Shown: positions 1 to 30,220 of the stretch, one piece after another
Layout: the number at the start of each line of letters is the position of its first letter
Position numbering within the stretch: the first letter of the stretch is position 1
Source: a virus
Length of the DNA: 31,238 nt
Strand: one strand, 5' to 3'
IMG/VR virus record: IMGVR_UViG_3300025154_002773
Location: 1-31,238 of that record
Made by a program: the position numbers and the translations under genes
Notes under the pieces: generated by a model
What the model was told of the DNA's origin: nothing
The model's database searches: none
What the model saw: only the letters and a program-made list of their open reading frames with translations

Positions 1-861
1 TTATAAAAATTTTTTAGCTCTTTTTGCAAACTCTTTATCATTCCATTGCATATAGGTAAACGATGAACTCGGGTCACAATGGCCTAGGATAGCTTGAACA
101 TCTTTAGGATTTCCGCCAAGGTCTAATACCCTATGTGCCTTACCATGACGAAAACTATGAGGGGTTATGTTTTTTTCAATTTTTGCTTTGATGCACAGTG
201 CCTTGATGATTCTTTGAACTGTTCTGGTGGTCATTCTTTTCGTGCATGTTCCATTAGTTATTTTTCCGACAAAAAAAGCTGGTGTTGAATTTAATTTTTT
301 CCTTTGTATCAAAAATTCTCTTACCATAATATGAGTTTCAACACTCCAAAATATCGTTCTCAGTTTGGTGGTTTTTTTGGTTCTTATTGTAGCGTTTGAT
401 TTTTTTGGATCGATATCAGATATGTTCATGTCGCATAATTCAGACACTCTAATCCCAGTTTCAAAAAGCAATCTAACAATTATCAACTTCTGAAATTCCC
501 AAAAGTCAGTAGGGTGGATAAAGCTTAAAATAGAACAATATTCTTCAAAGCTTATTGGCTGATGTGAATTAGCTACCGTGCGCGGAACTCTTATTAATTC
601 CGGTGATAAACAATTTACTCCTTGCAGTTTCCAAAAATGAAAATAATTTTTTAAGATTACCATAGATAGTTCTATCGACTTGGGCTGGTAATTATTATCC
701 TCCATCCAATTTTTATATTTTACTATGTCCCCTACTTCGGCATCTTCAATATCCTTGTGAGTGCAATCAACAAACTTATTTAACCATATTCGATAATTCT
801 TACTTGCCCGATTTGTATAGGTTGCTTTCCAATCTAAATAAACATCAATATTTTTACTCAT
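1..861 (-). CDS. int: Tyrosine recombinase (phage integrase)
   Basis: Complete 286-aa protein that would integrate and excise the phage by site-specific recombination. The N-terminal half is a SAM-like core-binding domain. The C-terminal catalytic domain carries the full active set: Arg in GIRVSEL (about residue 138), Lys in RTKKTTK (about 163), HSFRH (235-239), His in ILGHCD (261) and Tyr in FTYMQW (270). I place the start at the ATG at 861; the upstream TTG at 870 is unlikely. The gene ends exactly at base 1, so it is intact. The phrase GGNPKDVQAILGH and the overall layout recall XerC/D-like recombinases of CPR bacteria (from memory, not searched). A candidate promoter lies at 1090-1118, and a long hairpin ends ten bases before the start. 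Integrase rather than host Xer is inferred from the phage context. Confidence 0.93.
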   Translation of the reverse strand: MSKNIDVYLDWKATYTNRASKNYRIWLNKFVDCTHKDIEDAEVGDIVKYKNWMEDNNYQPKSIELSMVILKNYFHFWKLQGVNCLSPELIRVPRTVANSHQPISFEEYCSILSFIHPTDFWEFQKLIIVRLLFETGIRVSELCDMNISDIDPKKSNATIRTKKTTKLRTIFWSVETHIMVREFLIQRKKLNSTPAFFVGKITNGTCTKRMTTRTVQRIIKALCIKAKIEKNITPHSFRHGKAHRVLDLGGNPKDVQAILGHCDPSSSFTYMQWNDKEFAKRAKKFL

Positions 862-870
862 ACACAACAA

Positions 871-2014: not shown

Positions 2015-2731
2015 TTATCTTAAAAATTTATTAAATAAACCTATAATCTTTTCCAATATAAATTTTAGATTTACCGGGATAACTTCGCTTTTTATAACTT
2101 CTTCAATATCGATTTTTTCCACTTCTTGAGGCTTTTCTTCTTCTATACCTATGGGATTATTTTCTATAGGTTTTTCCGCAATTTCTATTTTTTCGGGAGT
2201 TGGCTTAACTTCCTCGACTTTTTCTGAAATAATAAATTCTTCCTTCTTTTCTTCAACTACTACCATATCCCCCCATCCTTCATTTTTTCCAGTACCACTA
2301 TAAACATAAACCACTACCCCATCGCAAGCACTGTGAATCGGATCATTAAGATCAGCATTTCCACTTCCTTTTCCATTTAAATCTAATCCAGGATGAAAGC
2401 ATGGGCTTTTCGCTCCAGCTACTTTTTTGGATTGGCTGTCATAATCCCAATATTCCAACCATTCAAGACCATAATGATGAAATGTAGGCATGACTATTTT
2501 TTCCAGTCCTCTAGGATCAGCGTAGTTATCCTTAACCCAGTCCTTAGATTTTCCTATGCAATACTCAGTAAACTTTTTTGGAGTATAGCTTAAAATATCA
2601 AAATGACAATGAGCATACCACTGACCATTGCCGGTTCCATTTTTGGCAATCATTTGATTTTTTTTAACTATATCCCCTACTTTAATTTTAATTCCCTCGA
2701 GGTGACCATATCTATAATATTTTTTACTCAT
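2015..2731 (-). CDS. M23-type peptidase with permuted domain order (endolysin)
   Basis: 238 aa. M23 zinc endopeptidases cleave peptidoglycan cross-bridges and usually run HxGxD first, then YGHL...VGD...KK.Q, then HxH. Here the order is reversed. Residues 8-48 hold the usual C-terminal half (YGHLEGIKIKVGDIVKKNQ, then AHCHFDI). The usual N-terminal half follows: HPGLDL (about 114-119) and then GVVVYV and GWGDMVVVEE (about 152-161). All expected zinc ligands are present but circularly permuted. An in-frame TAA upstream excludes a longer N-terminus. A Glu/Pro-rich linker and a short hydrophobic C-terminal helix follow. There is no signal peptide, so release would need the holin upstream. Its start overlaps the preceding small gene (ATGA). 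Confidence 0.8.
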   Translation of the reverse strand: MSKKYYRYGHLEGIKIKVGDIVKKNQMIAKNGTGNGQWYAHCHFDILSYTPKKFTEYCIGKSKDWVKDNYADPRGLEKIVMPTFHHYGLEWLEYWDYDSQSKKVAGAKSPCFHPGLDLNGKGSGNADLNDPIHSACDGVVVYVYSGTGKNEGWGDMVVVEEKKEEFIISEKVEEVKPTPEKIEIAEKPIENNPIGIEEEKPQEVEKIDIEEVIKSEVIPVNLKFILEKIIGLFNKFLR

Positions 2732-2904
2732 TTGTTTTTGCCATAATAATTATATTGTTTTTCAATGTTTTTAATTACTGGATATTTCACATTTGGTTTT
2801 TCAACTCTTTTCATTAAATATAAAACCACAAACGATAACGTCGCTATCATCATAGATATTATAAATATAACTGCTAATATGTCTTCCAAAAATTTTTTAC
2901 TAAT
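2728..2904 (-). CDS. Small single-span membrane protein, non-ATG start
   Basis: Frame reading S-K-K-F-L-E-D then a membrane span (about residues 9-30) and a basic, Tyr/Lys-rich tail. It ends in a 4-base ATGA overlap with the endolysin, which strongly suggests a translated, coupled gene. The most natural start is an ATT at 2904, giving MSKKFLEDIL, very like the endolysin's own MSKKYY start. TTG at 2889 and ATG at 2853 are alternatives. Its place between holin and endolysin fits a spanin- or holin-accessory role, by context only. Confidence 0.55.
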   Translation of the reverse strand: MSKKFLEDILAVIFIISMMIATLSFVVLYLMKRVEKPNVKYPVIKNIEKQYNYYGKNK

Positions 2905-2922: not shown

Positions 2923-3381
2923 TTATTCCGCTTTAGCTTTATCAAATAAGCTAAATAACATTCCTCTTATTTTTTTCAAAATAATGCTGAGCGCGTCGAT
3001 TTCTTTTATCCTTTTGCCAGTTTTAAAAGCTTGGATATTCCCGATTATTGAATAAACTTCTGATAAAACTAACATTGACAATATACTTTGAACAACTAGA
3101 TTTAAATTAAACCCAGCGCCCTTTGCTCCCAATATCAAGACAAATGGGATTAATAATATTAAGGCCTTAGCTACTGCCCCCATTGTCATTCTTCTTGATG
3201 TGATAGAGTTTCTTCCATCAATTTTGTAAGAAGCCAAAATACCTGTAGCAAAATCTACAATCATCAAGATAGAAAGAGCGGAGATTGACCAAGATGTTTG
3301 CTCGGGTATTCCTATGGCTATCAGAAATGCCGGGATATATAGTAGATTTTTAATCCAAATTATTGTTGTACAATTTTCCAT
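2923..3381 (-). CDS. Phage holin (phage_holin_4/toxin-secretion type)
   Basis: 152 aa with three to four hydrophobic segments: LLYIPAFLIAIGI (about 12-24), SALSILMIVDFATGILASY (about 33-51), a long hydrophobic run about 70-90, and another about 95-115. The pattern D-F-x-T-G-x-x-A, then a basic turn with S-R-R-M, is typical of the phage_holin_4_1 family as I remember it. Holins make the membrane pore that times lysis. It is the first gene of the lysis cassette, directly after the tail-fibre gene, and has no Shine-Dalgarno. Confidence 0.82.
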   Translation of the reverse strand: MENCTTIIWIKNLLYIPAFLIAIGIPEQTSWSISALSILMIVDFATGILASYKIDGRNSITSRRMTMGAVAKALILLIPFVLILGAKGAGFNLNLVVQSILSMLVLSEVYSIIGNIQAFKTGKRIKEIDALSIILKKIRGMLFSLFDKAKAE

Positions 3382-4726: not shown

Positions 4727-6685
4727 TTATTGTTTATAAAAATTAGAAGGTGTTTTCATTTTCTTAATCATTCCTTTTGCTAAAACTTTGAGTATTGTAA
4801 AATCTGCATCAGCCGAATTAGAATAAATATGAAACTGAATAGCTCTTAATGTTTTTTTTACTTTTCTGGCGCTTGGCACTGATGCTTGACTATAAGTTAC
4901 TGGGGCATCTTCCTCATCTTTAAGTGTTATTTCTCCCAAATCCCCTGTCCAAAATTCAATAGTCTGAAGATTTCCTGTAATTTGTTTTGTTGCGATAGAT
5001 GAAAAATTTCCTTTTTGACTTAACCCCAAAATTTCAAAATATATAGTTCCAGCTGGTCTTCCTAATTCCACTAATGCCTCTTGAATTTTAGCGAAAACAG
5101 TCGGATCATCATCTACTGGAATCAATCCCGACATCCACGATTGATAAAATGGCTTTCCAAGATCTCCTTTTATATTTTTAGAAATTTCAATCAATTTATC
5201 TCCATTATTTGGAATTCCTAATAATTTAGTCGTTCCATTACTTTCTGTAATTTCTAAAAATGATTTAAATCCAATTGTCCATTTCCAAAGCCATTCATCT
5301 TGTTCAGTATCCAAACCAAACATGATGTCATTGCCATTTCCACTTTCTGAGGCTGTCCAAAATAGTTTGGAGTCGTACCAAATACCGGCCATATTTCCAA
5401 TGTTTTTTAACCCCTTAAATGATGGGCGAATATTGCCAGATAATTCTCCAGTTGAAAGAATGTTTTGAACATTTACCTTATTATTCAATGAGAACATTCC
5501 TCTACTGTTTGGAATATAAAGTGAGTCGTTAGCATCAATTACTCCAAGCATTGCCACTGTTCCTATTGGTCCAGGTAGTTTGACTGGATTAGGCACTATA
5601 ATCGTTGTGTCGGCTATCGTTGTTACTTCTAGAGATATTTGCCAAATAGATCCGATACCGGCCTTATTGCGCGTTAATACAGTCGTGACGCTATCACCCT
5701 TACCATTTCTAAAGTGTCCAACCCATTCTAGATTTTCTCCAGTTCCGTCTATTAATGGTTGATAACCTCCACCATAAAATTCCGAAAATACTCCCAAATC
5801 CGTTCCAGTTCCGCTCCAATATACAAATTCATTTGTGATTCCCCATAATCTTGATCCGCTATCTGCAATCATTTTAAATACTGGTGCGCCAGTAGTATCT
5901 CCTTCAGGACAAGAAAAATATGGGTTTTGGACAAAAGTTCCATCATCTTTAAAGCTTAATCCAGTAGTTGAAGTTTCTGCTAATAATAACTCCTTACCGC
6001 TTTCATCTGCATAATAAATTTGATATCGAGCTGCACCCGTGACTGCAGACCAAGTCAATGTTAAATATTCACTAGAACCTGGTAGCCAAGCATTTCTTGG
6101 TTTATTAGTGCTAAGATTTACTTCTGCACTTCCTTGAGTTTCTCCAACTTCATTTAAAGCGGTTACCTTGTAATAATTATTATAGCTACCAGCAGTTAAA
6201 ACATTTCTAGTTAGTCCTAATCCAGTCGGCGCGGATAGAGGTGTATATCTAGTTAGATTAGTTCCGTTATACCTGGTTAATCTATCTTTTCCATTAGAAA
6301 TATATAGTTGCCTTACCGATTGAACAAAATTATATTTTGTGGCAGCAATATCAAAAGTTGCTCCTGTAATTTCTGTCCAGTTTTCCTGATCAACACTTTT
6401 ATATGCCTTTCCATTGGCACCGATAGCAATTTTTTCTTGAGTACCATCTACATTTTCATATATTCCACATGCTACAAAATTGCCTGGCAATTGACTTCCA
6501 TAATAAGCAGTTCCCCATCTTGTTTTCCAGCGTCCATCTTGGACCAAAATTAAATTCAAAGCCTCTTTGGCAAATTTTGCGCCCAAAATCACATCATCCA
6601 ATAATGATGCTAAGCCCTTGAAAGTATCAATAATTAATTTCCAGGGTATTTTAGATTTAATTCTTCTTCTTGGAAGTATTTTCAT
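4727..6685 (-). CDS. Tail nozzle / tail tubular protein B-like
   Basis: 652 aa. Residues about 48-150 hold LVQDGRWKTRWGTAYYG and then repeated beta strands (IAIGANGKAYKS, QLYISNGKDRLTRYN), the propeller-like pattern of T7 gp12-type nozzle proteins. A fibronectin-III-like domain (about 151-250; APTGLGLT ... YYKVTALNEVGETQGSA ... YQIYYAD) appears inserted in the propeller. More strands with WTASESGNGNDIMFGLD follow. The gene lies directly after the putative adaptor, as in short-tailed phages. No Shine-Dalgarno. The function rests on layout and fold impression, not on a search. Confidence 0.7.
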   Translation of the reverse strand: MKILPRRRIKSKIPWKLIIDTFKGLASLLDDVILGAKFAKEALNLILVQDGRWKTRWGTAYYGSQLPGNFVACGIYENVDGTQEKIAIGANGKAYKSVDQENWTEITGATFDIAATKYNFVQSVRQLYISNGKDRLTRYNGTNLTRYTPLSAPTGLGLTRNVLTAGSYNNYYKVTALNEVGETQGSAEVNLSTNKPRNAWLPGSSEYLTLTWSAVTGAARYQIYYADESGKELLLAETSTTGLSFKDDGTFVQNPYFSCPEGDTTGAPVFKMIADSGSRLWGITNEFVYWSGTGTDLGVFSEFYGGGYQPLIDGTGENLEWVGHFRNGKGDSVTTVLTRNKAGIGSIWQISLEVTTIADTTIIVPNPVKLPGPIGTVAMLGVIDANDSLYIPNSRGMFSLNNKVNVQNILSTGELSGNIRPSFKGLKNIGNMAGIWYDSKLFWTASESGNGNDIMFGLDTEQDEWLWKWTIGFKSFLEITESNGTTKLLGIPNNGDKLIEISKNIKGDLGKPFYQSWMSGLIPVDDDPTVFAKIQEALVELGRPAGTIYFEILGLSQKGNFSSIATKQITGNLQTIEFWTGDLGEITLKDEEDAPVTYSQASVPSARKVKKTLRAIQFHIYSNSADADFTILKVLAKGMIKKMKTPSNFYKQ

Positions 6686-7324: not shown

Positions 7325-10300
7325 TTATCTTCGTCTTCTTTTAACTTTTGTAATTCTCCTTTTAGTAAATCTGGTTGGCATTCTATACATTCTCGGCTTG
7401 CTCTTAAATCCGTTAAGTAATGCATTTATTTCCAAAAAATCATTATCTACCAACGGATAGCGATATTTCTCCTCGAGTTTCTTGCCTGTACCTGATCCGC
7501 TACTAGATGAAAGTTTTTCCTTACCGTCTTTCCCAATTTTTACTTTTTTAAGATATGTCCGCTCCTCCTTGCTAATAATTCCTGCATCATATAAATTATC
7601 AATTACACCATTGGAGGCCAGAATTTTTCCACCTATACTTTCCTTTCGATTTTCCCAAATATTATCGAGCACGGTTTGATGATCGGCTTCTTGTGACAAA
7701 GCTGAAACAAAATATTGCGACTTGACATCATCAGTTTGATTAGCGGCAAAATCATATTCGATATCGTCTTTTTCTAATCCCATTTTTTGGAAAATTTGGC
7801 TTTTAACCTCATCGGGAATATTTTTATAAGTATCATCTTCTCCAAATATTTTACGAGCCGTATCAATTTTATCGTTTTCAAAAATATATTTATCCATTCC
7901 TTGTTTAGTATTTTCCTTTGTATATTTATCGAGTCCAAAGGCGTTAATATAAATATCTGAATCATAGTTAGCTTCGCCATTAGCAACCAAATCGATAGCT
8001 ACTGCTCTTCGGGCTAGCTCCTCAGTTTTAAATGTTTTTGTGTCAGCGAGAAGATTGGGGACATAATAATTTCCATCTTCGAGTCCGAAAACTCCACCTC
8101 CCAAATCACCTAGCCCCTTAGTAATCTTGCCTAACTTTACCGCTTTTTTAAGTTCTTCCTTTGTGTTATCTGATGCGCGCGAAGACATTACCTCATCAAA
8201 ATATTTATTTCCTCCAATTTTAAATTTCTCAGTTTGTTCTTTACTAAGCGGAGTTTGCTTATTATCGAAATAATCCTGCATTTCTCCAAAAGCGTTTTTT
8301 CCAAACATTAAACCTCTCAATGTATTTGAGAGTGTTGCTTCTACTGGAGTCATCACTTTGCCAGTTTTGTTTTCAACATATCCATTTAATAAAGATTTCG
8401 CTCCGCTGTAGGTTTTTTCAAGTTGTTTTCCTCCGTAAGGCAATATAACTCCGGTTAACGGATTTTTAACTGCACTAAACATCGGTAATCCGCCAGTCCC
8501 AAATCTAGTAGGATCTCCTTCTCCAAAAAGTTCTTTTCTCGGAATATTCATAAATTTAGATAACGTCGGAAAACTCTCCTCATTCACTCCAAATCCATAC
8601 TCAGGATACATACTCGCAAGAGTTTGTCCTCCTGGAATATTAGAGATAACTTCTCCAGCTATTCTTCCCCCAGCTTTTAAAGATCCTTTAACTTTGCCGT
8701 CTTCACCTTCGAATTCCTGATAAGCATCTACCATTGCATTGATAGGATCAAAAGATACGTCTGAACCCCTAACTTCATTAACTACTCGATTCATCAAATA
8801 ACTAGCCACAGTAAATTCCAACATCTTTTTTGCAACAACTAATTTACTAGGGTCATTTTTAGCGATATCTTTAAGCGCGTACCATTGATTGGCCACTTCC
8901 AATTGAAATGGCGCAACTAGTTGAAAAACTTTTGATTTTTGCGCTATTGGAACCTCTCCTATGCCTCTACCAGCTACCATTTTTCTTGTCCAATCATCCG
9001 CATATTTAATAGGATTAGACACGCCTTCAGATAAAGCTTTTTGATAATGTGCATTCCATATAAATTTAGTTCCAATTTTATCCCCTATTCCAGTCATCCA
9101 AATCGCAAACTTTTTAGTATTAGCTAAAACTCCTTCATTAAATTTGTCATAATCATTAAAATATCTCTCATTAACAAATGCCGATTTCTTAATAGGAGTA
9201 TTTTTTTTAAATATTCCTGCTAAACTATTACCAATAGCCTTGGCTGAGTTTTTAACTCCAGCGCTTGCAAATCCTTGAGGAATATTAAAATATTGAGCTA
9301 AAGAGCTAGAGGCATTTCCAAGCACAGCGTTGGCCTTAAATCTACTATTGGCCCAACTAACTACACTCAGAGCTTTTCTTCCAAATAAATTTTCTTGCAG
9401 TCCTCGATCTAGTGGATTTGTTTTCCCTCCCAAATCTCTCGAAAAGTTTTTTATAAATACCAAAAAATTATTTAACTTATTTTCCGATAATTCTGCGTTA
9501 GCTTTAAAACCCATATTGTTCAAAGCGTTTTCTTTATTTTTAGCAGTTTTGTTTTTTATATAACTTTTTACTTTTTCGTAATTATTTAAAGCGGCCAAGT
9601 CTTTGCCCATCCAATCAGCTTGAGCTTCGGAAATTTTATGATCCGTTAAAATCTTTTTAATTTGAGCGATATCCGTTGAATCAGTAATTTGCTGAATTGG
9701 ATCTAATTTTTGACTTAGCTCTTCTGATAGTCCCCTGCTCTCATGGAAAAACTCCCCAGCACCAAGAGCGCCCTTAGTTTCATCATCTACCCCTTTAAAT
9801 TTAGATATAAAAGGATCGACATGCTTGGCGTAAGCATGATTTTTTATATAATCCAAATATCCCTCCACTGCCCCAAAATCATTAGCGTCACCTTTTCTTT
9901 CCTGGCCAAAAGATAACCATTTTGTTTTTGGATTAGTCACATCAGATGAAGCCGCTAACGCGGGATCTATACTGGCAGAAGTTTCGAACATATTTTTTAG
10001 TCCGGCAATTCCCTCCAAATCTTTACCATGTCGATAATAATCTTTTCTTTCTGGTATTATTTTTGTGCTTTCAGGATATAGTGGATGAGTCGGAAAAAAA
10101 TATTCCCTTACTGCATTTAATTCTTTTAGTAGTTGAGGATATTTATTTTTAAACCATTTATCAGCCTCGATAATATTTCTCCATTGTTTAGGGAATTGCT
10201 GTCGCAATTCATCTTCTCCAAGTTTCCCTTCACCAAATAAAACCACTGCCATATCTTCTTTACTTCCCTTTTTAATACCTAATTTTTTAACAATATTTTC

Positions 10301-12118
10301 TTCTAATTCGTTTAAGAGTATCTTTTGCTCATTGATAAATTCACCCTTTGCAGCATCAAATGGATCCAGTAATTCTTTTTTAATTTTAGGAAATTGGTCA
10401 CCAAAAGTAGCCTCAAAATTTCGATAAACATCTCTAAATCCTGTCATCGGAGCCGAGATGTCTTTTAATTTTGCTGGGTTTACTCCCTCCAAATAATTGG
10501 TATCCAATTCGTGTTTTTTCTTATAATAATTTTTTAAAGTTAGATAAGGAACCTCTCTTTTTAAAATTAAATCCATTCTATCAAAATCCATCTTTTGGAT
10601 TTCATTTTTTGGATAACCCAAATTTCCAAGCTTAATAATTCGCTTAGCTTGATCTACACCTATTCTATCAATATCTTTTTTTACATATCCGATAGCTCTC
10701 AATTCCTTCGGATAATCAATTATTTCTCTAATTGCATCAACTCTCTCTCCTTTTACTTTGTGGGCCCTCTCTTGGAACTTATTAAATCCGCCCTCTGGTG
10801 GTGCTAGCGGAGTTTCCTTTTTTGGTTTTACCACAAATTCATCCCCCTTAAATGGAGATTCATTTTTTATTGATTTTTTACCATTAACAAATTCCTCAAT
10901 ACTTGGAACTTTATTTTGTTTTGTTTCTGTTTTTTTATTTACAAATTCTTCAATCGATGGAAATACCGACTGCTTGTTTTGCTCAACCTCCAAAAATGCC
11001 TTCTGCGGTGCTTTAACTTTTTGAGGTGGTACAAAACCTTTTTCTGCTTTATCAAGCCTCAAGCGTTGATTTTGTTGTTGCCTAGCTATTGTTTCTTGAG
11101 CTTTTTTATTTTTTAAAGCGATCTTATTATTAAAATCCATTACCTTAGATGAAACAATTCTTGGCTTAGTCGCATTCATATCCTGAATATTTAATCCTGG
11201 CCGCACGTTTAAAACTTTCCCAAGAACACTTTCAGGTTTAAATGGTGTTTTTATAGTTTGAATTATTTTTCTCTCTGTTCCAGGCACTGGGACCATCTGA
11301 GGCTTGCCATGAATCATTATTCCGTAATTCGGTCTATAATCTACTTTATCAACAACTTTTTTTGTATATGGATTTTTAAAATTCATTATATCAGTAGTCG
11401 TCTTTGCTATTTCCTTTTTAACACCCTCTTTTGTGCTATGAGCAACTTTACCTCCACCAGCTATTGTTCCGCCCAATACTCCTCCAGCTACTGTTCCCAT
11501 GATAGAACCCTGGACACCTCCTTTTAATGCATTCTCCCCTTGTTCTTTTAAATTTTTTCCCTCTTGCGCACCGCTTAATATTCCTGACGCTCCACCGTAA
11601 ATAAAACCTTCTTTAGCTCCTCTTTTTGCTCCGGTCTTAATTACATCCATCACTCCTGTTTTTGAGGCTTTCTTAAATCCATCAGTGGCTATCTTTTTTA
11701 TTGTTCCTCCTCCAGCAACAGTTGAGCCAATATCTACTCCGATATTTGCAGCCTCTGCTCCTCTCCTAACTAAATATGAAGGAGTTGCTTTTGTTTTCCC
11801 ATAATCCTTAAATGTTCCAGCAACTGTTCTTGAAGGGATATTCATTATTTGCTGTGGAATCTCTGCGGCGAATCTCCCAACTGGATTATTTACTTTTTTT
11901 GCAAAATCAAATTTAGGAATATTTTCTGCTTTTTGAGAAAAACTTCTTAATCCTTGATCTGCTTTTTTCATCCAGCCGGGAGTATTATTGGGATTGTTTA
12001 AATAATTTCTGGCTTCATTAGCCATTCTTCCAAGATTAGAAGAAGTCTTTTGAGCTACTGGCTCAAAAGTATCATTTAATTTCTTTTTTGTTTTTCTATA
12101 GAAATTTAATAATGACAT
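7325..12118 (-). CDS. Giant internal virion / ejection protein, polyvalent-like
   Basis: 1597 aa, the largest gene. Residues about 100-230 are rich in Gly/Ala zipper segments (GSTVAGGGTI, GASGILSGAQ, GTVAGGVLGGTIAGGG), which suggest membrane insertion. Residues about 340-450 are a Lys/Gln/Pro-rich linker with two copies of PSIEEFVN. The long helical core (500-1300) contains a WANSRFKANAVLGNASS to FQLVAPFQLEVANQWYAL stretch resembling LPD38-type domains of phage 'large polyvalent proteins' (from memory). The C-terminus is very basic (KRRITKVKRRRR). It is probably packaged in the head and ejected with DNA to build a channel, like T7 gp16. No protease or transglycosylase motif was seen. Confidence 0.65.
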   Translation of the reverse strand: MSLLNFYRKTKKKLNDTFEPVAQKTSSNLGRMANEARNYLNNPNNTPGWMKKADQGLRSFSQKAENIPKFDFAKKVNNPVGRFAAEIPQQIMNIPSRTVAGTFKDYGKTKATPSYLVRRGAEAANIGVDIGSTVAGGGTIKKIATDGFKKASKTGVMDVIKTGAKRGAKEGFIYGGASGILSGAQEGKNLKEQGENALKGGVQGSIMGTVAGGVLGGTIAGGGKVAHSTKEGVKKEIAKTTTDIMNFKNPYTKKVVDKVDYRPNYGIMIHGKPQMVPVPGTERKIIQTIKTPFKPESVLGKVLNVRPGLNIQDMNATKPRIVSSKVMDFNNKIALKNKKAQETIARQQQNQRLRLDKAEKGFVPPQKVKAPQKAFLEVEQNKQSVFPSIEEFVNKKTETKQNKVPSIEEFVNGKKSIKNESPFKGDEFVVKPKKETPLAPPEGGFNKFQERAHKVKGERVDAIREIIDYPKELRAIGYVKKDIDRIGVDQAKRIIKLGNLGYPKNEIQKMDFDRMDLILKREVPYLTLKNYYKKKHELDTNYLEGVNPAKLKDISAPMTGFRDVYRNFEATFGDQFPKIKKELLDPFDAAKGEFINEQKILLNELEENIVKKLGIKKGSKEDMAVVLFGEGKLGEDELRQQFPKQWRNIIEADKWFKNKYPQLLKELNAVREYFFPTHPLYPESTKIIPERKDYYRHGKDLEGIAGLKNMFETSASIDPALAASSDVTNPKTKWLSFGQERKGDANDFGAVEGYLDYIKNHAYAKHVDPFISKFKGVDDETKGALGAGEFFHESRGLSEELSQKLDPIQQITDSTDIAQIKKILTDHKISEAQADWMGKDLAALNNYEKVKSYIKNKTAKNKENALNNMGFKANAELSENKLNNFLVFIKNFSRDLGGKTNPLDRGLQENLFGRKALSVVSWANSRFKANAVLGNASSSLAQYFNIPQGFASAGVKNSAKAIGNSLAGIFKKNTPIKKSAFVNERYFNDYDKFNEGVLANTKKFAIWMTGIGDKIGTKFIWNAHYQKALSEGVSNPIKYADDWTRKMVAGRGIGEVPIAQKSKVFQLVAPFQLEVANQWYALKDIAKNDPSKLVVAKKMLEFTVASYLMNRVVNEVRGSDVSFDPINAMVDAYQEFEGEDGKVKGSLKAGGRIAGEVISNIPGGQTLASMYPEYGFGVNEESFPTLSKFMNIPRKELFGEGDPTRFGTGGLPMFSAVKNPLTGVILPYGGKQLEKTYSGAKSLLNGYVENKTGKVMTPVEATLSNTLRGLMFGKNAFGEMQDYFDNKQTPLSKEQTEKFKIGGNKYFDEVMSSRASDNTKEELKKAVKLGKITKGLGDLGGGVFGLEDGNYYVPNLLADTKTFKTEELARRAVAIDLVANGEANYDSDIYINAFGLDKYTKENTKQGMDKYIFENDKIDTARKIFGEDDTYKNIPDEVKSQIFQKMGLEKDDIEYDFAANQTDDVKSQYFVSALSQEADHQTVLDNIWENRKESIGGKILASNGVIDNLYDAGIISKEERTYLKKVKIGKDGKEKLSSSSGSGTGKKLEEKYRYPLVDNDFLEINALLNGFKSKPRMYRMPTRFTKRRITKVKRRRR
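10787..10858 (-). repeat. Palindromic-repeat-like insertion inside the giant virion gene
   Basis: This part of the gene encodes SPFKGDEF ... TPLAPPEGG (residues 421-444). Such SPFKGD/PLAPPEGG peptides are typical read-through products of REP/MITE-like GC-rich palindromes that can sit in frame inside genes. The DNA has purine-rich TAAGGGGGAT at one end and CCGC...GCGG arms at the other, more G/C-rich than the flanks. It sits in the low-complexity linker, where an insertion would be tolerated. Confidence 0.4.
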
Positions 12119-14686: not shown

Positions 14687-15835
14687 CTAAGCGAGATTGA
14701 ATTTTGCATAAAATGCAACTCCGGCCTTTCTTCTTTCGTCAGCCACTTTTTCTCCATGACCAAATAAACCTTTGATTAAATCAGAATGTCCATTTGGATT
14801 TTGCTCAGCTTTGATTGTTGAAATATTTTCAATATATCCAAAAGCTCCGGTAATAAAAGATTTATGACCACCAACACACATAAAACCATCAGTATTATCA
14901 CCGGTGAACCATTCATCAGGTAAGAAATACAAATCAAATCCAGATGCTTTAGCTACCTTACCTTTAGCCACAGTCTCATCAAAAACTTCCTTAATACTTG
15001 GATTAAGTTCAGTTGCTTTCAATAAAACTGGTTTAGCGGCCAATTCGGGCAAAGCTAACCAACGCTTTCCATCATTAGGAGCTCCTTTTAGCATTCCAGA
15101 TAGAACATCAAGATTATATTTGAAATTGCTTTGAGTAATTGCAAGACAAGTATTTGCTTGAATTTCATAAGAACTTCCCCCTGCAATAGCTCCACCTGTA
15201 TAGGCGCTATCAGTATCGTCACTATCGTCTTCAATTACTATATGAGTTGTATCTGTAAATGTTTTAACTCTAAACCATTTACTATGACCGTCAGCTCTAA
15301 ATGGTTTTCCAACCATTGAAGCTGCGAAAGTCGTTCCAACTCCAACCACTGCTCCAGTTGTGACTGTTATGGTAACCGTTCCTGTGACATATGATGTCCC
15401 TAACCAATTTCCAGCAGCTGCATCAGCATAAAATGCTAATATAGCCTGGTCCATTTCTTCATATAAAGCTTGTCCAGCTTGATTGATTATTTCACTATCT
15501 GGATCTTCAACTGCGCTAGCAAAAGCAGCCACAGATGGAATCTCATCCGCTATCTCAAGGAATGTGCCGACAATCAATCTAGAAATAACTTCCGTTACCT
15601 TGGTGTAAGTTATTGTGCTTACTCCATCAGTAGATTTCCAACCACCACCAGTAAGAGTCGTAACAACAAACTCTTTAAATTTTTTATCTACTTTCTTTTT
15701 CATTTTAGGATCAGAAACATTCTGAGCCTCAAAATTATCATTTACCACATCCACATACATCGAACGCTGAAAGAACTTTTGAAGTGCTTTGGTTTGATAT
15801 TTTATGGAAGTAGTTTTTGTTCCCAAATTATCCAT
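14687..15835 (-). CDS. Major capsid protein with inserted beta domain
   Basis: 382 aa. Assigned as coat protein because it follows a scaffold-like gene, has the right size and contains HK97/P22-coat-like elements: an N-terminal helical arm, a long helix about 106-140 (DSEIINQAGQALYEEMDQAI) and a C-terminal FGYIENISTI / HGEKVADERRKAGVAFYAKF segment. Residues about 149-226 look like a separate beta sandwich (TGTVTITVTTGAVVGVGTTF, then WFRVKTF, then HIVIEDD), a domain type also found in phage tail and decoration proteins. It may project from the shell like the I-domain of P22 coat. Confident as a capsid gene; the insert fold is an inference. Confidence 0.82.
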   Translation of the reverse strand: MDNLGTKTTSIKYQTKALQKFFQRSMYVDVVNDNFEAQNVSDPKMKKKVDKKFKEFVVTTLTGGGWKSTDGVSTITYTKVTEVISRLIVGTFLEIADEIPSVAAFASAVEDPDSEIINQAGQALYEEMDQAILAFYADAAAGNWLGTSYVTGTVTITVTTGAVVGVGTTFAASMVGKPFRADGHSKWFRVKTFTDTTHIVIEDDSDDTDSAYTGGAIAGGSSYEIQANTCLAITQSNFKYNLDVLSGMLKGAPNDGKRWLALPELAAKPVLLKATELNPSIKEVFDETVAKGKVAKASGFDLYFLPDEWFTGDNTDGFMCVGGHKSFITGAFGYIENISTIKAEQNPNGHSDLIKGLFGHGEKVADERRKAGVAFYAKFNLA

Positions 15836-17822: not shown

Positions 17823-19544
17823 TTAATAAACATCATTATTTACTATCTGTTCATTCTCTTGATTTTCAACTATTGTCCCTCCTTCATCTCCAACCCCAGC
17901 GATTGCATTTGGATCGTCAGCGCTAACAATGATTTTATTCCAATCGGTTATTCCATTCTCAATTGCTAATCTTTTAACCGCTTCACCCCAGTTAATCTTT
18001 TTTCCGCTACTCGCAATGTCTTGTTGGATTGCATCATTTTTAGCAATCATATTTAGAAGTCCCATCATCTTTTCAGCGGCATCACTTCGCTTAGCAGTAC
18101 TTCCAGAATCAATTTTGTATTTAATAGATAAATCAGATAATAAGTCTCTTGTAATAATTCCATTTTCAAAAACATTTAAATCACTATGTGGATAGACAAC
18201 TTTAATATTTTCTAAAGCTTCTTGTATTCCTGGAATTTTTACTTTATCCATGCCTCTTTTAGAAGCTACTGCCATCATCATATTGGCCACATTTTCCAAG
18301 AATCTTTCTTGCATATATCTATCCCAGCTATCTCTGGCACCCTCTCTATCTCCTTGCATCTTCAGGGCCTCTGGAGTCTTGCCAAAGCCAACATCCACAC
18401 TCTTAGGGATAGACGTATCAGAAGCAGCGCCTAAGCTCATTAGATTAGCTTTCATCATGTTGTAAGTACTTTGAAAAGTAGCCAGTCCTTGAGGAGAATT
18501 TTCAAGAATCCTAACCTTATCAACATTGCCTTCTTTGGCAAACCAAAATTTGTTGTCGACATGAACACTAGACATAACCATTAATTCAGGATCAATAATG
18601 GCAGTTGGGTCTATGCTCTTATCTAATGAAGCAAAATATTTTCTGCACAACGCATCGATTGCTTTTTGTGGCATCTCACCTCTTTCCATATCTGATAAGC
18701 CCCAATATCTATCCAAAACTGGAATGGTCAATTTTTCCACCAAAGGAATTCCAGGAAAATAATCTTTTTCATTAAGAATTTCTTTTTTAGAATTAGGTTC
18801 AAAAATTATCCAGTCTCCATTTCGATTAAAGTAATTTCTTAAAACTATAGTGTCCTTGTCTTGTATTCGATTCTTTTCTTCTGAGGTTAAAGACGATTGG
18901 TCAACGGATGAAGGATTTATTTCATTAATTACAGCCTTGTTCCATACTCCAGGATTATCTTTGCATCTATCCTCTAGCCACTTTTTGCTTACAAAAACAT
19001 CCACAAAACACCAATCCATATCGCTAATGGAATATTTTCCTGGTTGAGGATAAAATCTTCTAGGATGAACCAAAACCATATCCGGACCGGTATACAATTT
19101 ACCAACCATATAGTCGATGAAAACCATCATTGTTCCGTAAATTTTCGAGTAAAAATTAACCTGTCTTGATTTTGTGAAAAAATCACCACCGATATTTGCA
19201 TTGGGTAAAATATATTCATGGTAAACAAGATTTGCTGCTATAACTTTAGATATGTCAGTGTCTCGATAACTAGAAAATCTTCCGGTAGCCATCTGAGCCA
19301 TTATTCGACAACTGCTATCAAGAATTAAAGTTGCGAGTTCTCCTGTGGAATAAAATGATTCAACATTTTTCTTTTCTTTTTCCTTATCGTCGATATTTAC
19401 ATATCTCCCATAAAACAACTGCTCTCTATCAGTCCAAGCAAAACCAGAGGACATAACATCCTTTTTGACTCTTTCGGCCTCAGTGAATTCTGCTTGAATA
19501 TCACTAGACACTTCAGTTATTTGGATTGTTTCATTTTCTTCCAT
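17823..19544 (-). CDS. Portal protein
   Basis: 573 aa from the ATG at 19544. An ATG four codons upstream (19556) is the alternative; the downstream one has the usual AAAAATATG context. The size and the order (terminase, portal, scaffold, capsid) fit a podovirus-type portal, the dodecameric vertex through which DNA is packaged and ejected. Seen features: an N-terminal TDREQLFYGRYVN region; a beta/helix core, IYGTMMVFIDYMVG and VHPRRFYPQPGKYSISD; the long helix region ALKMQGDREGARDSWDRYMQ near the crown; and an Asn/Glu-rich C-terminal tail. The assignment rests on context and overall pattern. Confidence 0.8.
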   Translation of the reverse strand: MEENETIQITEVSSDIQAEFTEAERVKKDVMSSGFAWTDREQLFYGRYVNIDDKEKEKKNVESFYSTGELATLILDSSCRIMAQMATGRFSSYRDTDISKVIAANLVYHEYILPNANIGGDFFTKSRQVNFYSKIYGTMMVFIDYMVGKLYTGPDMVLVHPRRFYPQPGKYSISDMDWCFVDVFVSKKWLEDRCKDNPGVWNKAVINEINPSSVDQSSLTSEEKNRIQDKDTIVLRNYFNRNGDWIIFEPNSKKEILNEKDYFPGIPLVEKLTIPVLDRYWGLSDMERGEMPQKAIDALCRKYFASLDKSIDPTAIIDPELMVMSSVHVDNKFWFAKEGNVDKVRILENSPQGLATFQSTYNMMKANLMSLGAASDTSIPKSVDVGFGKTPEALKMQGDREGARDSWDRYMQERFLENVANMMMAVASKRGMDKVKIPGIQEALENIKVVYPHSDLNVFENGIITRDLLSDLSIKYKIDSGSTAKRSDAAEKMMGLLNMIAKNDAIQQDIASSGKKINWGEAVKRLAIENGITDWNKIIVSADDPNAIAGVGDEGGTIVENQENEQIVNNDVY

Positions 19545-19560
19545 ATTTTTATTCATTTAA

Positions 19561-20139: not shown

Positions 20140-20643
20140 CTACATAATTATCTGATCAAGTAATTTACTACCCCGTATTGCAGCAGCAGCAGGAGAAACA
20201 TTAAAAATATTTGCGACCTCCTCAATCGACTTTGACTTATTCCAAATATATATAAATTTATCTCTCGGCATCAACAGCTTAGCAGCATTTTTATTTGCAA
20301 TAATTTCCATCATAACTCTCTCCTCCTCTTTTTCGGCTTCTTCTTTTCTCATCACTGGTTGCCTATTCTGAGTTACATAGTCATCATTGATAATTGATTT
20401 ATGAAGAAGAAAATGAATAATCTCATGAGCTATCGTAAATCTCTTTCTCGTAGATGAATGGTTAGCATTCACATAAATAACATACTGATTCCCTTCTTTT
20501 CTTATTAATCCGGACTCACTGTCATCCAAGCTTTCTGTTTCAAAAACTTTGATATCTAGTTTATCGGCTATTTCTAAAATAGGAACAGGAACACTATCTT
20601 TGTATTCATCAAAGATATCGTTGAGTGTTATTTCTTTTTCCAT
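20140..20643 (-). CDS. ImmA/IrrE-type metallopeptidase
   Basis: 167 aa. It carries the zincin motif TIAHEIIHFLLHK (His73, Glu74, His77) and a downstream MEIIANKNAAKLLMP (Glu113 as probable third ligand), the exact layout of the ImmA/IrrE (COG2856) family. ImmA of ICEBs1 cleaves the ImmR repressor to induce excision, and IrrE cleaves DdrO. Here no HTH repressor lies next to it, so it may act on a repressor elsewhere or on a host protein. It sits between terminase and portal, an unusual place for an immunity gene, in a block that looks like cargo. The C-terminal helices may bind its target. Confidence 0.85.
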   Translation of the reverse strand: MEKEITLNDIFDEYKDSVPVPILEIADKLDIKVFETESLDDSESGLIRKEGNQYVIYVNANHSSTRKRFTIAHEIIHFLLHKSIINDDYVTQNRQPVMRKEEAEKEEERVMMEIIANKNAAKLLMPRDKFIYIWNKSKSIEEVANIFNVSPAAAAIRGSKLLDQIIM

Positions 20644-21455: not shown

Positions 21456-23033
21456 TTATCTTAAAAATCCTCTCTTATCGTAAGATTTAGGTTGATTATA
21501 ATTTTGATACTTTTTGTATTTATCATCTCCTCCTCCAGTTGCTATATTGGACTTATCAAGATTAACAGCCAGATATTCTGTAGCCGAACGATGATGAGAT
21601 GTCCAGTCGTGAATAGGAAGTGATACCGGTGACGTCGCTTGAGAGTTTTCATTTCTCTGTGGATAACGAGCAAATTTTATAGAAGAAACCCATGTTTTAG
21701 TTCCGACATCCCCACTTCCCTCAGTATCATTGATTTCAACACCTTTCTGCAAAAATACCTTAGTTTTTTCTTTTCTGATTGCGAACGTATTAGCTTCTGG
21801 AGACGTTTGAACAAATATTCCAGCCTTTTCTAACTCTAACCTAGTGCTAGTCTTTTCTTTGCTAACTATGGACCGTTTAGCCACGTCAGGATCTCCCACA
21901 TGAATTGCCTTTTTCCACTGACTAACTTTTTGAATAAGCGCCAATTCTTCAGAAGTATAATCAAACAATGAATCAATCAAATTCCCTGGGAAAAATGGAA
22001 ATAAATAATGGATTGAAACATTTTCCTTTTTGTAAGCTTCCACTAATCTAAACTTTCCGTTATTTTGATTCTTCTGCCACCATTGAACAGCTATTCCGTC
22101 AAGACCAAAATCCCACGAAACAAACAATGGCCATTCTGGATTATAAGGGAATTTTCCTACTTCGATATATTTAACCTCATCATAAACTCTGCCCCTAATA
22201 GAAGTGTCCCAATTTCTCATTATTTCTCTAGCAAAATCTTCTTCACTTCTTCTTTCTCTTTCTGATGCTAGCCATTTTGCATCTTTGCGCGGATCTAAAT
22301 GATAATCTAATTCAATAATCTTAATTTTTTCCCCATCCTCTCCAAATCTTAGCCTCTTGGCTTTACCTGGTTTGATTCCTGGGGTTGTTAGTACAATTCT
22401 GCAGTCAGTTGTATCTGCAGTAGAACCCCACGCAGATGAGTCATTATCCCAAAATGCAAACTCATCCATAAAAATTGCTTTTTGCCGACCTCCTCGAGAG
22501 AAATTTGAATTAGATGATTCACCGGATATGATATTACCGTTTTCCGGATTTATTAAAGACATATAGGTTAAATGTTTTCTAAAATCAAATCCGTTTGGCA
22601 ATATGAATTTAGGTTGCCTCATTAATGTATATTCTATTTTTCCGAATAATGACTCTTCTTTATTTGATACACCGCCGGAGTCACCTTTAGTATTATCTAC
22701 ATAAGCTTCCTTTCTTGAACCGAGCAAAAAGTTAGAACCGGGGATATATCTCCAAAACCATAAAATAACATCAATCACTGTGTAGGTTGCGCCCATCTCT
22801 CTACACTTATCAAAAAATATATCCTTTCCGTTTTCGATAGCATCTTTAAGCTCATCGACAATCATCTTTTCTTGAAATGGAAATAATTTAAATTTAAAAT
22901 GATAAGGTTCCACTTTTGGATTAAAAGTTTGGCAGAAATTATTAATATATGCTTTTGGATCTTTTTCGGCATCACTAATCATTTCTTTAAGTTTTGCTAG
23001 TTTCTCTTTACGAGATAAGTTTATCGAGTTCAT
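21456..23033 (-). CDS. terL: Terminase large subunit
   Basis: 525 aa from the ATG at 23033 (a TTG at 23051 would add six residues). It packages DNA using ATP and cuts the concatemer. Seen: a divergent Walker A, KCREMGATY (about 76-84); Walker B AIFMDEFAFW (about 186-195) with the catalytic Glu; coupling motif TTPG (about 216-219); the RNase H-like nuclease start VSWDFGLDG (about 305-313); a second acidic motif, HVGDPDVAKRS; and a late acidic site, HDWTSHHRSA. Full length for the family. It overlaps the small-subunit gene by 26 bases. Confidence 0.95.
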   Translation of the reverse strand: MNSINLSRKEKLAKLKEMISDAEKDPKAYINNFCQTFNPKVEPYHFKFKLFPFQEKMIVDELKDAIENGKDIFFDKCREMGATYTVIDVILWFWRYIPGSNFLLGSRKEAYVDNTKGDSGGVSNKEESLFGKIEYTLMRQPKFILPNGFDFRKHLTYMSLINPENGNIISGESSNSNFSRGGRQKAIFMDEFAFWDNDSSAWGSTADTTDCRIVLTTPGIKPGKAKRLRFGEDGEKIKIIELDYHLDPRKDAKWLASERERRSEEDFAREIMRNWDTSIRGRVYDEVKYIEVGKFPYNPEWPLFVSWDFGLDGIAVQWWQKNQNNGKFRLVEAYKKENVSIHYLFPFFPGNLIDSLFDYTSEELALIQKVSQWKKAIHVGDPDVAKRSIVSKEKTSTRLELEKAGIFVQTSPEANTFAIRKEKTKVFLQKGVEINDTEGSGDVGTKTWVSSIKFARYPQRNENSQATSPVSLPIHDWTSHHRSATEYLAVNLDKSNIATGGGDDKYKKYQNYNQPKSYDKRGFLR

Positions 23034-23604
23034 CGTCGTTAATATTATCAATTAAGTTTGTATTGTTGGTGTTATTTACTTGGACCGCTACGCCTGGAGA
23101 ATTATCTTCAAGCCCGAGAAGTTTTCCAAGCTTATCGTGATATGCTTTTTGAACTGCGTGATTTGGTGTTTCTACTTTTTCATATATTATTTCCGAGTCC
23201 TTTCCCTTTTTTATTCTTAAATTAATAAAGTCAGTATTTGTAGCGTTTAAGCCATCTCTAATCTTTTTTAAATATATTTCTATCCCTAAACCAAAGTCAC
23301 AAAGAAGCATTCCTGTGCCACCCCTTTCCCTAACCTTTGCTAACCTGCGCGCTCCTAGCACTGAAGCAACTTGATCACTAACACTTGGATGTAATTCTTT
23401 ATATGCTTTTGTTGAATTTCCCTCATGTTTAACCCAGCTGATATAAAAAGAAACTAGCTTTTCATCTTTATCAAAAATATCCATCAAAATATCCACAAAT
23501 TCGTTAGAAATAGATTTTTTCTTTACAGTTAAAGATTTGTTAGTAATTAATTTTTTAACAATCTTTTTTTTATTTAATTTTGATTTAGATTTTTTCTTTA
23601 TCAT
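23008..23604 (-). CDS. terS: Terminase small subunit
   Basis: 198 aa. Lys-rich N-terminus, then a helix-turn-helix-like part (STKAYKELHPSVSDQVASVLGARRLAK) typical of small-terminase DNA-binding domains, then a helical oligomerisation region (about 95-160) and an Asn-rich acidic tail. It recognises the packaging start and stimulates the large subunit. It lies directly upstream of, and overlaps, the large-subunit gene. Identity is supported by gene order as much as by sequence. Confidence 0.85.
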   Translation of the reverse strand: MIKKKSKSKLNKKKIVKKLITNKSLTVKKKSISNEFVDILMDIFDKDEKLVSFYISWVKHEGNSTKAYKELHPSVSDQVASVLGARRLAKVRERGGTGMLLCDFGLGIEIYLKKIRDGLNATNTDFINLRIKKGKDSEIIYEKVETPNHAVQKAYHDKLGKLLGLEDNSPGVAVQVNNTNNTNLIDNINDDELDKLIS

Positions 23605-29515: not shown

Positions 29516-30220
29516 TTATAAATTCGCTAAATAATAACCCTCGTTATAAGTTACCCAAGGTTGAAAACCTCTTCGGCTAAACATTTCATGGGCAATTTTT
29601 ATATTGTGTTTATAATCAAACAATTCAGCTGGACATTCTTTTAACTTTCCTGGCGTTTCGTGATTTATTTGAGCTACACCGCAATCAACACTCCATGCTT
29701 TTTTTCTATCTTCCAACTTGCACATATCACTATATCTTTTTCCGTTTTCATCGTAGTAATAGCAATTCCAGTTTTGAGCTGTTGGATTCAAAGCACTTTC
29801 TGTTTTAAATACTGCTAATGCAATTTTTGAATTTTCCCTAAAAACATTTTTTGTTTCTTTTTCTATTTCTTGAGCAGTGGGAGGGATATTTTTATCATCG
29901 ATAATTTCTCCCTCACCATTTAACTGCTCATCCAATGAAGCATGTGCCACAGGCGAACCCACAACACCGACATCATTTATTGCTATTAACTTTTCTCCCT
30001 TAATATCTATTTTGCGTATTTCGTAGAAAACAACCGTGTAAGAAATTCCGACTATCAGCATCAATGATCCTAATAAAAATCTTGATTTCATAAATTGTTT
30101 TATTTTTTCTTTTTTCCACTTTTTAAACTGGAGCTTTTTATTTTTTAGCCAGTTTTTTATTTTTAACATCATCTCTTTTTGGTCTGTATCACCCATAAGA
30201 CGATTATTTTTTATTTTCAT
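29516..30220 (-). CDS. Membrane-anchored lytic transglycosylase-like protein
   Basis: 234 aa. Basic N-terminus, one membrane span (about 48-66), then a linker and a lysozyme-like domain: LAVFKTESALNPTAQNWNC with catalytic Glu141, GVAQINHETPG (the SLT GLMQI-like motif) and the closing PWVTYNEGYY. It would cut glycan strands at the cell surface side. Being in the early module rather than the lysis cassette, it may act in conjugation-like transfer or entry, or be a cell-wall remodeller. Its start codon lies in a long inverted repeat (30219-30268), so translation may be controlled. It is the first gene of the module. Confidence 0.78.
   Translation of the reverse strand: MKIKNNRLMGDTDQKEMMLKIKNWLKNKKLQFKKWKKEKIKQFMKSRFLLGSLMLIVGISYTVVFYEIRKIDIKGEKLIAINDVGVVGSPVAHASLDEQLNGEGEIIDDKNIPPTAQEIEKETKNVFRENSKIALAVFKTESALNPTAQNWNCYYYDENGKRYSDMCKLEDRKKAWSVDCGVAQINHETPGKLKECPAELFDYKHNIKIAHEMFSRRGFQPWVTYNEGYYLANL

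Follow-up and report, generated by a model that had tools for sequence, protein, structure and literature searches.

Locus of the lysin gene

The stretch analysed here (the window) comprises the 31,238 nucleotides of IMG/VR record IMGVR_UViG_3300025154_002773, from a Candidatus Moranbacteria virus, and carries on its minus strand a lysin gene of the M23 peptidase family: an open reading frame (ORF) of 238 amino acids with an ATG start (Table 1). The host, a tiny bacterium, belongs to a largely uncultured group. Because the TGA of a 53-residue ORF overlaps the lysin ATG (ATGA, with the A at 2731), the lysin start is well defined; at locus L111, which also encodes such a lysin, the upstream ORF (5531-5998) overlaps the lysin start (5995) as well, by four bases. 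Read from its N-terminus, the window protein passes from a strand with YGHL through VGDIVKKNQMIAKNGTGNGQWYAHCHFD and FTEYCIGKSKDWVKDNYADP to a junction, followed by CFHPGLDLNGKGSGNADLNDPIHSACDGVVVYVYSGTGKNEGWGDMVVVEE and a charged tail that closes with VIPVNLKFILEKIIGLFNKFLR. Known M23 enzymes have the part with HPGLDL first and the part with HCHFD second. On the evidence set out below, the gene product is likely to be a zinc peptidase of the lysostaphin/LytM type that was circularly permuted in nature and acts as the endolysin of a Candidatus Moranbacteria prophage.

Table 1 Features of the lysin gene and its surroundings in the window
Feature	Positions	Strand	Basis or remark
Permuted M23 lysin gene	2015..2731	-	ORF; two swapped profile matches; 10 further permuted homologues
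Canonical second half of M23 with canonical C-terminal extension, residues 1-73	2513..2731	-	Canonical-only profile
Junction from old C-terminus to old N-terminus, residues 74-107, LEKIVMPTFHHYGLEWLEYWDYDSQSKKVAGAKS	2411..2512	-	Alignment
Canonical first half of M23 (HPGLDLN...GWGDMVVVEE), residues 108-163	2243..2410	-	Canonical-only profile
Charged tail with conserved hydrophobic/amphipathic end VIPVNLKFILEKIIGLFNKFLR, residues 164-238	2018..2242	-	Ratio of nonsynonymous to synonymous substitution rates (dN/dS); hydropathy
His10, equivalent of LytM His260 by motif	2702..2704	-	Invariant in permuted-set alignment
His41-Cys42-His43 (HxH)	2603..2611	-	Invariant in permuted-set alignment
His113-x3-Asp117, predicted zinc ligands	2381..2395	-	Invariant in permuted-set alignment
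Small predicted membrane protein, 53 amino acids, TTG start	2728..2889	-	Counterpart kept in L001
Holin	2923..3381	-	PF05105 Phage_holin_4_1, 9.6e-09; PHROG 13191 holin, 3e-10; two genes upstream of lysin
Hydrophobic holin-like protein, 61 amino acids	1825..2010	-	4 bp downstream of lysin
Tyrosine integrase	1..870	-	PF00589, 1.1e-28; adjoins Moranbacteria host genes in a metagenome-assembled genome (MAG) contig

The two M23 halves stand in reversed order

To avoid circularity, we compared the lysin with a profile made from canonical relatives only (14 proteins, 139 positions). Residues 3-73 matched profile positions 66-136 (independent E-value (i-E) 1.8e-20) and residues 108-163 matched positions 8-61 (i-E 7.7e-14). 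The swap of the M23 halves proposed by an earlier reading of the DNA letters (the sequence-only reading) is thus borne out far beyond chance. The first of these stretches carries YGHL, VGD and HCHFD, followed by Y-x-x-GKS-x-x-x-V-x-x-x-Y-x-DP; both halves are present and essentially complete, and only the loop between them is absent. The general family profile PF01551 also recognised the lysin in two separate stretches (score 42.2 bits, cut-off 28.7), with the best one, residues 5-47, corresponding to positions 46-88 of 96.

Together with its homologues described below, the window lysin forms a set of 11 permuted proteins, in every one of which the canonical-only profile gives two swapped stretches that leave out little beyond the loop. 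Since the usual order—the half with Hx3D, then the half with HxH—is reversed in all 11, the lysin is by its sequence a permuted variant of M23 rather than a member with the ordinary order of halves. The sequence-only reading had also excluded a hidden canonical first half, a point that stands: in-frame stops shut the lysin frame upstream, a check of the upstream frames of the window gene found no M23 first half, and a credible first-half ORF was absent from all permuted loci scanned.

The same arrangement recurs on independent contigs

When viral contigs and Moranbacteria-order genomes were scanned by pattern and by alignment, further homologues of reversed order, the search for which had been suggested as a check, were recovered. 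In total, 11 distinct permuted proteins lie on independent contigs (window, L001, L055, L053, L069, L070, L106, L108, L111, L048 and L122; L107 carries the same protein as L106 and was counted once). The lysin of L001, another viral contig, is 74-78% identical to that of the window and has the same half order, and short members of only 153-155 amino acids, among them L055 with 154, share the arrangement, each as an intact gene running from its own start to its own stop. A second Moranbacteria-order genome (G405) contains L122 within a different prophage that has its own integrase and tail gene set, with glycosyltransferase genes nearby; the terminase-like protein of the window found no match in G405. 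In a 380-genome sample of the phylum, only G001 was permuted among the matches examined, and neither a tblastn search of a phage collection with the window and L055 proteins nor a search of plasmids with L106 gave matches. A Vibrio phage match (H19) spanning both halves of L111 was rejected, its order being canonical on reading.

An identical copy of the lysin gene (100%; L004) is present in a separate assembly, contig DNVQ01000031.1 from a MAG of Candidatus Moraniibacteriota, which agrees with the window at 100% identity over 30,243 bases. Given that window position 1 corresponds to base 51,558 of this 82,159-base contig, the window runs past the contig end, and the two assemblies are therefore different products, though the underlying reads may be common. 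Within the MAG contig, the integrase adjoins host genes that we named by inspecting their translations (Rrf2 regulator, cysteine desulfurase, Nudix hydrolase, IscU-like protein and GNAT acetyltransferase), so the window virus is a prophage. Misassembly, which the sequence-only reading had named as its own possible undoing, might be suspected where both original contigs are metagenomic, the true gene then being canonical. With agreement between separate assemblies across 30 kb, 11 distinct proteins so arranged on independent contigs, of which two belong to Moranbacteria-order genomes, and complete genes for the shorter members, the probability of such an assembly or rearrangement artefact is negligible: the reversed order is a natural rearrangement and no sequencing error.

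Active site, selection and predicted structure

All five catalytic and zinc-binding residues of the M23 set (His10, His41, His43, His113 and Asp117) are retained and invariant across the permuted proteins, in agreement with the earlier claim that no zinc ligand had been lost. The family motifs are likewise complete, comprising Hx3D, HxH and a third histidine, His10, located 31 residues before His41. Based on the roles of M23 residues, including the equivalent of LytM His260, compiled in the review PMC9662197, His41 is predicted to activate water and His43 to bind zinc. The lysin gene is evolving under purifying selection, as dN/dS between the window and L001 is 0.135 (0.09-0.19 in separate parts, both halves included). 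Over the charged tail dN/dS is 0.136, and its conserved end, VIPVNLKFILEKIIGLFNKFLR, may contact the membrane (hydropathy 1.56). Conserved ligands, the dN/dS of the whole gene and its position in a lysis cassette together suggest that the lysin is probably functional.

For residues 1-167, AlphaFold2 given an alignment of 40 rows (10 permuted proteins plus separate halves of canonical ones) placed both halves in one compact and confidently modelled domain, with a predicted local distance difference test score (pLDDT) of 90.5 and a predicted template modelling score (pTM) of 0.88; at the level of a model, this favours the proposal that the halves would meet in a single fold. Strand 5-12, which opens this model and carries His10, and strand 155-161, which closes it, are the pair that a loop connects in the canonical order. 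Foldseek superposed just a part of the model, 71 columns, on a viral M23 peptidase (root-mean-square deviation 1.1 A, TMq 0.40, at an insignificant E-value of 1.6), as a sequential aligner would be expected to do with a permuted protein. Matches in PDB (Foldseek, VIA-align; Z 4-5.7) comprised a NusG insert, NqrA/RnfC and biotinyl and lipoyl carriers—barrel-sandwich hybrid domains aligned over the whole model—and no M23 protein; we took them to reflect the limit of sequential alignment and a shared fold class, not a relationship.

The model also bears on the idea that the lysin is active only as a domain-swapped dimer, in which each site would be made up of the N-terminal half from one chain and the C-terminal half from a partner chain. 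Gene order alone cannot separate intra- from intermolecular pairing, and the 34-residue junction (74-107) would permit either; however, AlphaFold2 packs the monomer at the pTM given above, the junction is homologous to extensions of canonical single-chain domains, and members as short as 153-155 residues share the arrangement. A dimer is thus unlikely, and a monomeric site would be the expected form.

Several observations weigh against a functional permuted enzyme as interpreted here. The good model was obtained with unpaired canonical halves besides the permuted rows, and a run with two rows (window and L001) gave a pLDDT of 33.8 and was discarded. No M23 structure was matched over the whole domain, although none would be expected to be, since the aligners apparently work along the chain. 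Finally, L001 reads HCHAD instead of HCHFD. This last difference would also suit a catalytically dead M23 relic, retained as a wall-binding or regulatory protein similar to EnvC or NlpD; inactive M23 domains have been described (PMC9662197), and one might suppose that the swapped order harms function. Yet the invariance of five active-site residues, the low dN/dS across both halves and the lysis-cassette position in several phages render a dead relic very improbable, and a working permuted peptidase remains the preferred interpretation.

Breakpoint, junction and possible origin of the permutation

Where canonical relatives read continuously across the breakpoint region (GWGNLIVIKHRHLGQDIYSRYAHL in L031, GGFGHFIVLHHPAHNRWTRYAHL in L114), the permuted proteins are cut: their first half finishes ...GWGNLIVIEE and the protein itself begins M..xxRYGHL. 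The cut lies in the loop between two strands and is identical in all 11 permuted proteins. Canonical relatives carry a C-terminal extension of the form Y-x-x-G-x-S-x-x-x-V-x-x-x-Y-x-x-P and some also an N-terminal extension of the GLDWLEYY type, such as TGLDWLEYY in L114, to which GLEWLEYW in the junction of the window lysin corresponds. The permuted junction thus consists of both canonical extensions, the C-terminal one leading into the N-terminal one, as would remain if a complete canonical module had been duplicated and both ends then trimmed; this makes an origin by partial tandem duplication and trimming plausible. No tandem A-B-A-B intermediate was found among the fetched loci. In a tree for which the two halves were aligned separately and then concatenated, all permuted proteins formed one clade (ultrafast bootstrap (UFBoot) 88), with the canonical phage lysin L031 as sister and closest outgroup; a single permutation event would be the simplest reading.

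Some members have acquired further parts. In L111 (5995-6837) and L122 (937-2016), the permuted lysin continues into a C-terminal coiled coil with hydrophobic segments, whereas the window and L001 have a separate hydrophobic gene (61 and 58 amino acids, respectively) just downstream of the lysin, so that a link through fusion of lysin and holin-like genes is possible. In L108 (6001-6870), the permuted M23 domain is followed by a second domain resembling a PHROG endolysin and tape-measure lysozyme-like regions. As a tentative idea that we regard as the less probable course, a single old permutation may have founded a separate, spreading clade in which a C-terminus beside the active site offered a new fusion point—used in L111 and L122 to attach a coiled coil plus holin-like hydrophobic segments, in L108 the lysozyme-like part—and so gave rise to lysin-plus-membrane or two-enzyme modules, an arrangement closed to the canonical order.

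Lysis cassette and proposed action

The window gene lies in a lysis cassette near a holin, as would be expected of an endolysin, and such a position recurs for permuted lysins in several phages; that of L048 adjoins two PHROG holins. No signal peptide is visible in the lysin, and its most likely role, as judged from gene context, would be that of a holin-released endolysin. In the scheme we propose, the canonical domain would have been cut in the inter-strand loop (...IVIxH | xxYxRYAHL...), so that the flanking strands became the C- and N-terminal strands, while the old C- and N-termini would have been linked via the extensions already present in canonical relatives. Packed as one barrel, the strands of both halves would allow His113, Asp117 and His43 to bind zinc, and His41 together with His10 may activate water so that a peptide bond of the peptidoglycan stems or cross-links is cleaved. 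Release of the lysin presumably falls to the adjacent holin.

Elsewhere, the window encodes a second candidate wall enzyme, an SLT-like protein with an N-terminal membrane anchor (29516-30220 (-), PF01464, 3.1e-05), and the L111 phage also encodes an SLT_3 protein whose N-terminus carries a hydrophobic segment (L111:8508-9071). An IrrE-like M78 peptidase is encoded at 20140-20643 (-) (PF06114, 3.7e-24); such peptidases are often regulators of prophage induction. Large proteins of structural or packaging type (7325-12118, 14687-15835, 17823-19556 and 21456-23051 (-)) gave no Pfam match at 0.01, so this Moranbacteria phage has diverged widely from the phages described so far.

Relation to known peptidoglycan hydrolases

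Few families of peptidoglycan hydrolases are as widespread as M23, from which the lysostaphin-type enzybiotics derive. A conserved, naturally permuted clade implies that the M23 barrel tolerates termini in a loop near the active site, and offers an example on which permutation through duplication and trimming can be tested. It is also a warning that order-dependent tools underscore such lysins, which appear as half-matches in Pfam and, in structure searches, without any M23 entry from PDB. Few phages of Patescibacteria have been characterised, and the permuted lysin may point to a lysis enzyme that they use. We found no description of a natural circular permutation of M23 in the open-access literature, although absence there is no proof; the string "permut" does not occur in the M23 review PMC9662197.

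With subfamily M23B of PF01551 (LytM, lysostaphin and phage M23 endolysins), the permuted lysin has in common Hx3D, HxH and the extra histidine before HxH, a near full-length match of both halves and, in its predicted model, the barrel-sandwich fold class; it differs in its reversed halves and in having its termini in the loop between the IVIxH strand and the YxHL strand. The closer relatives L031 and L114, as well as the PHROG 7767 metallo-endopeptidase, have the canonical order, unlike the permuted lysin, with which the first two nevertheless share the C-terminal extension (FTEYVYGLSK..V.KKYLDP in L031, GWSKDKVQEYYFNP in L114). L114 shares the N-terminal extension as well, whereas L031 (7242-8330 (-)) is set apart by an additional long N-terminal region, which weakly matches the PHROG 16701 peptidase. 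A parallel is offered by the circularly permuted families of NlpC/P60 (YaeF/poxvirus G6R and LRAT-like), as outlined in PMC6403190 citing Anantharaman and Aravind 2003. These have a papain-like cysteine fold, not a zinc M23 fold, and bear no sequence relationship to the permuted lysin, but they likewise represent a peptidoglycan-hydrolase-related fold in which the order of the catalytic residues has been swapped naturally.
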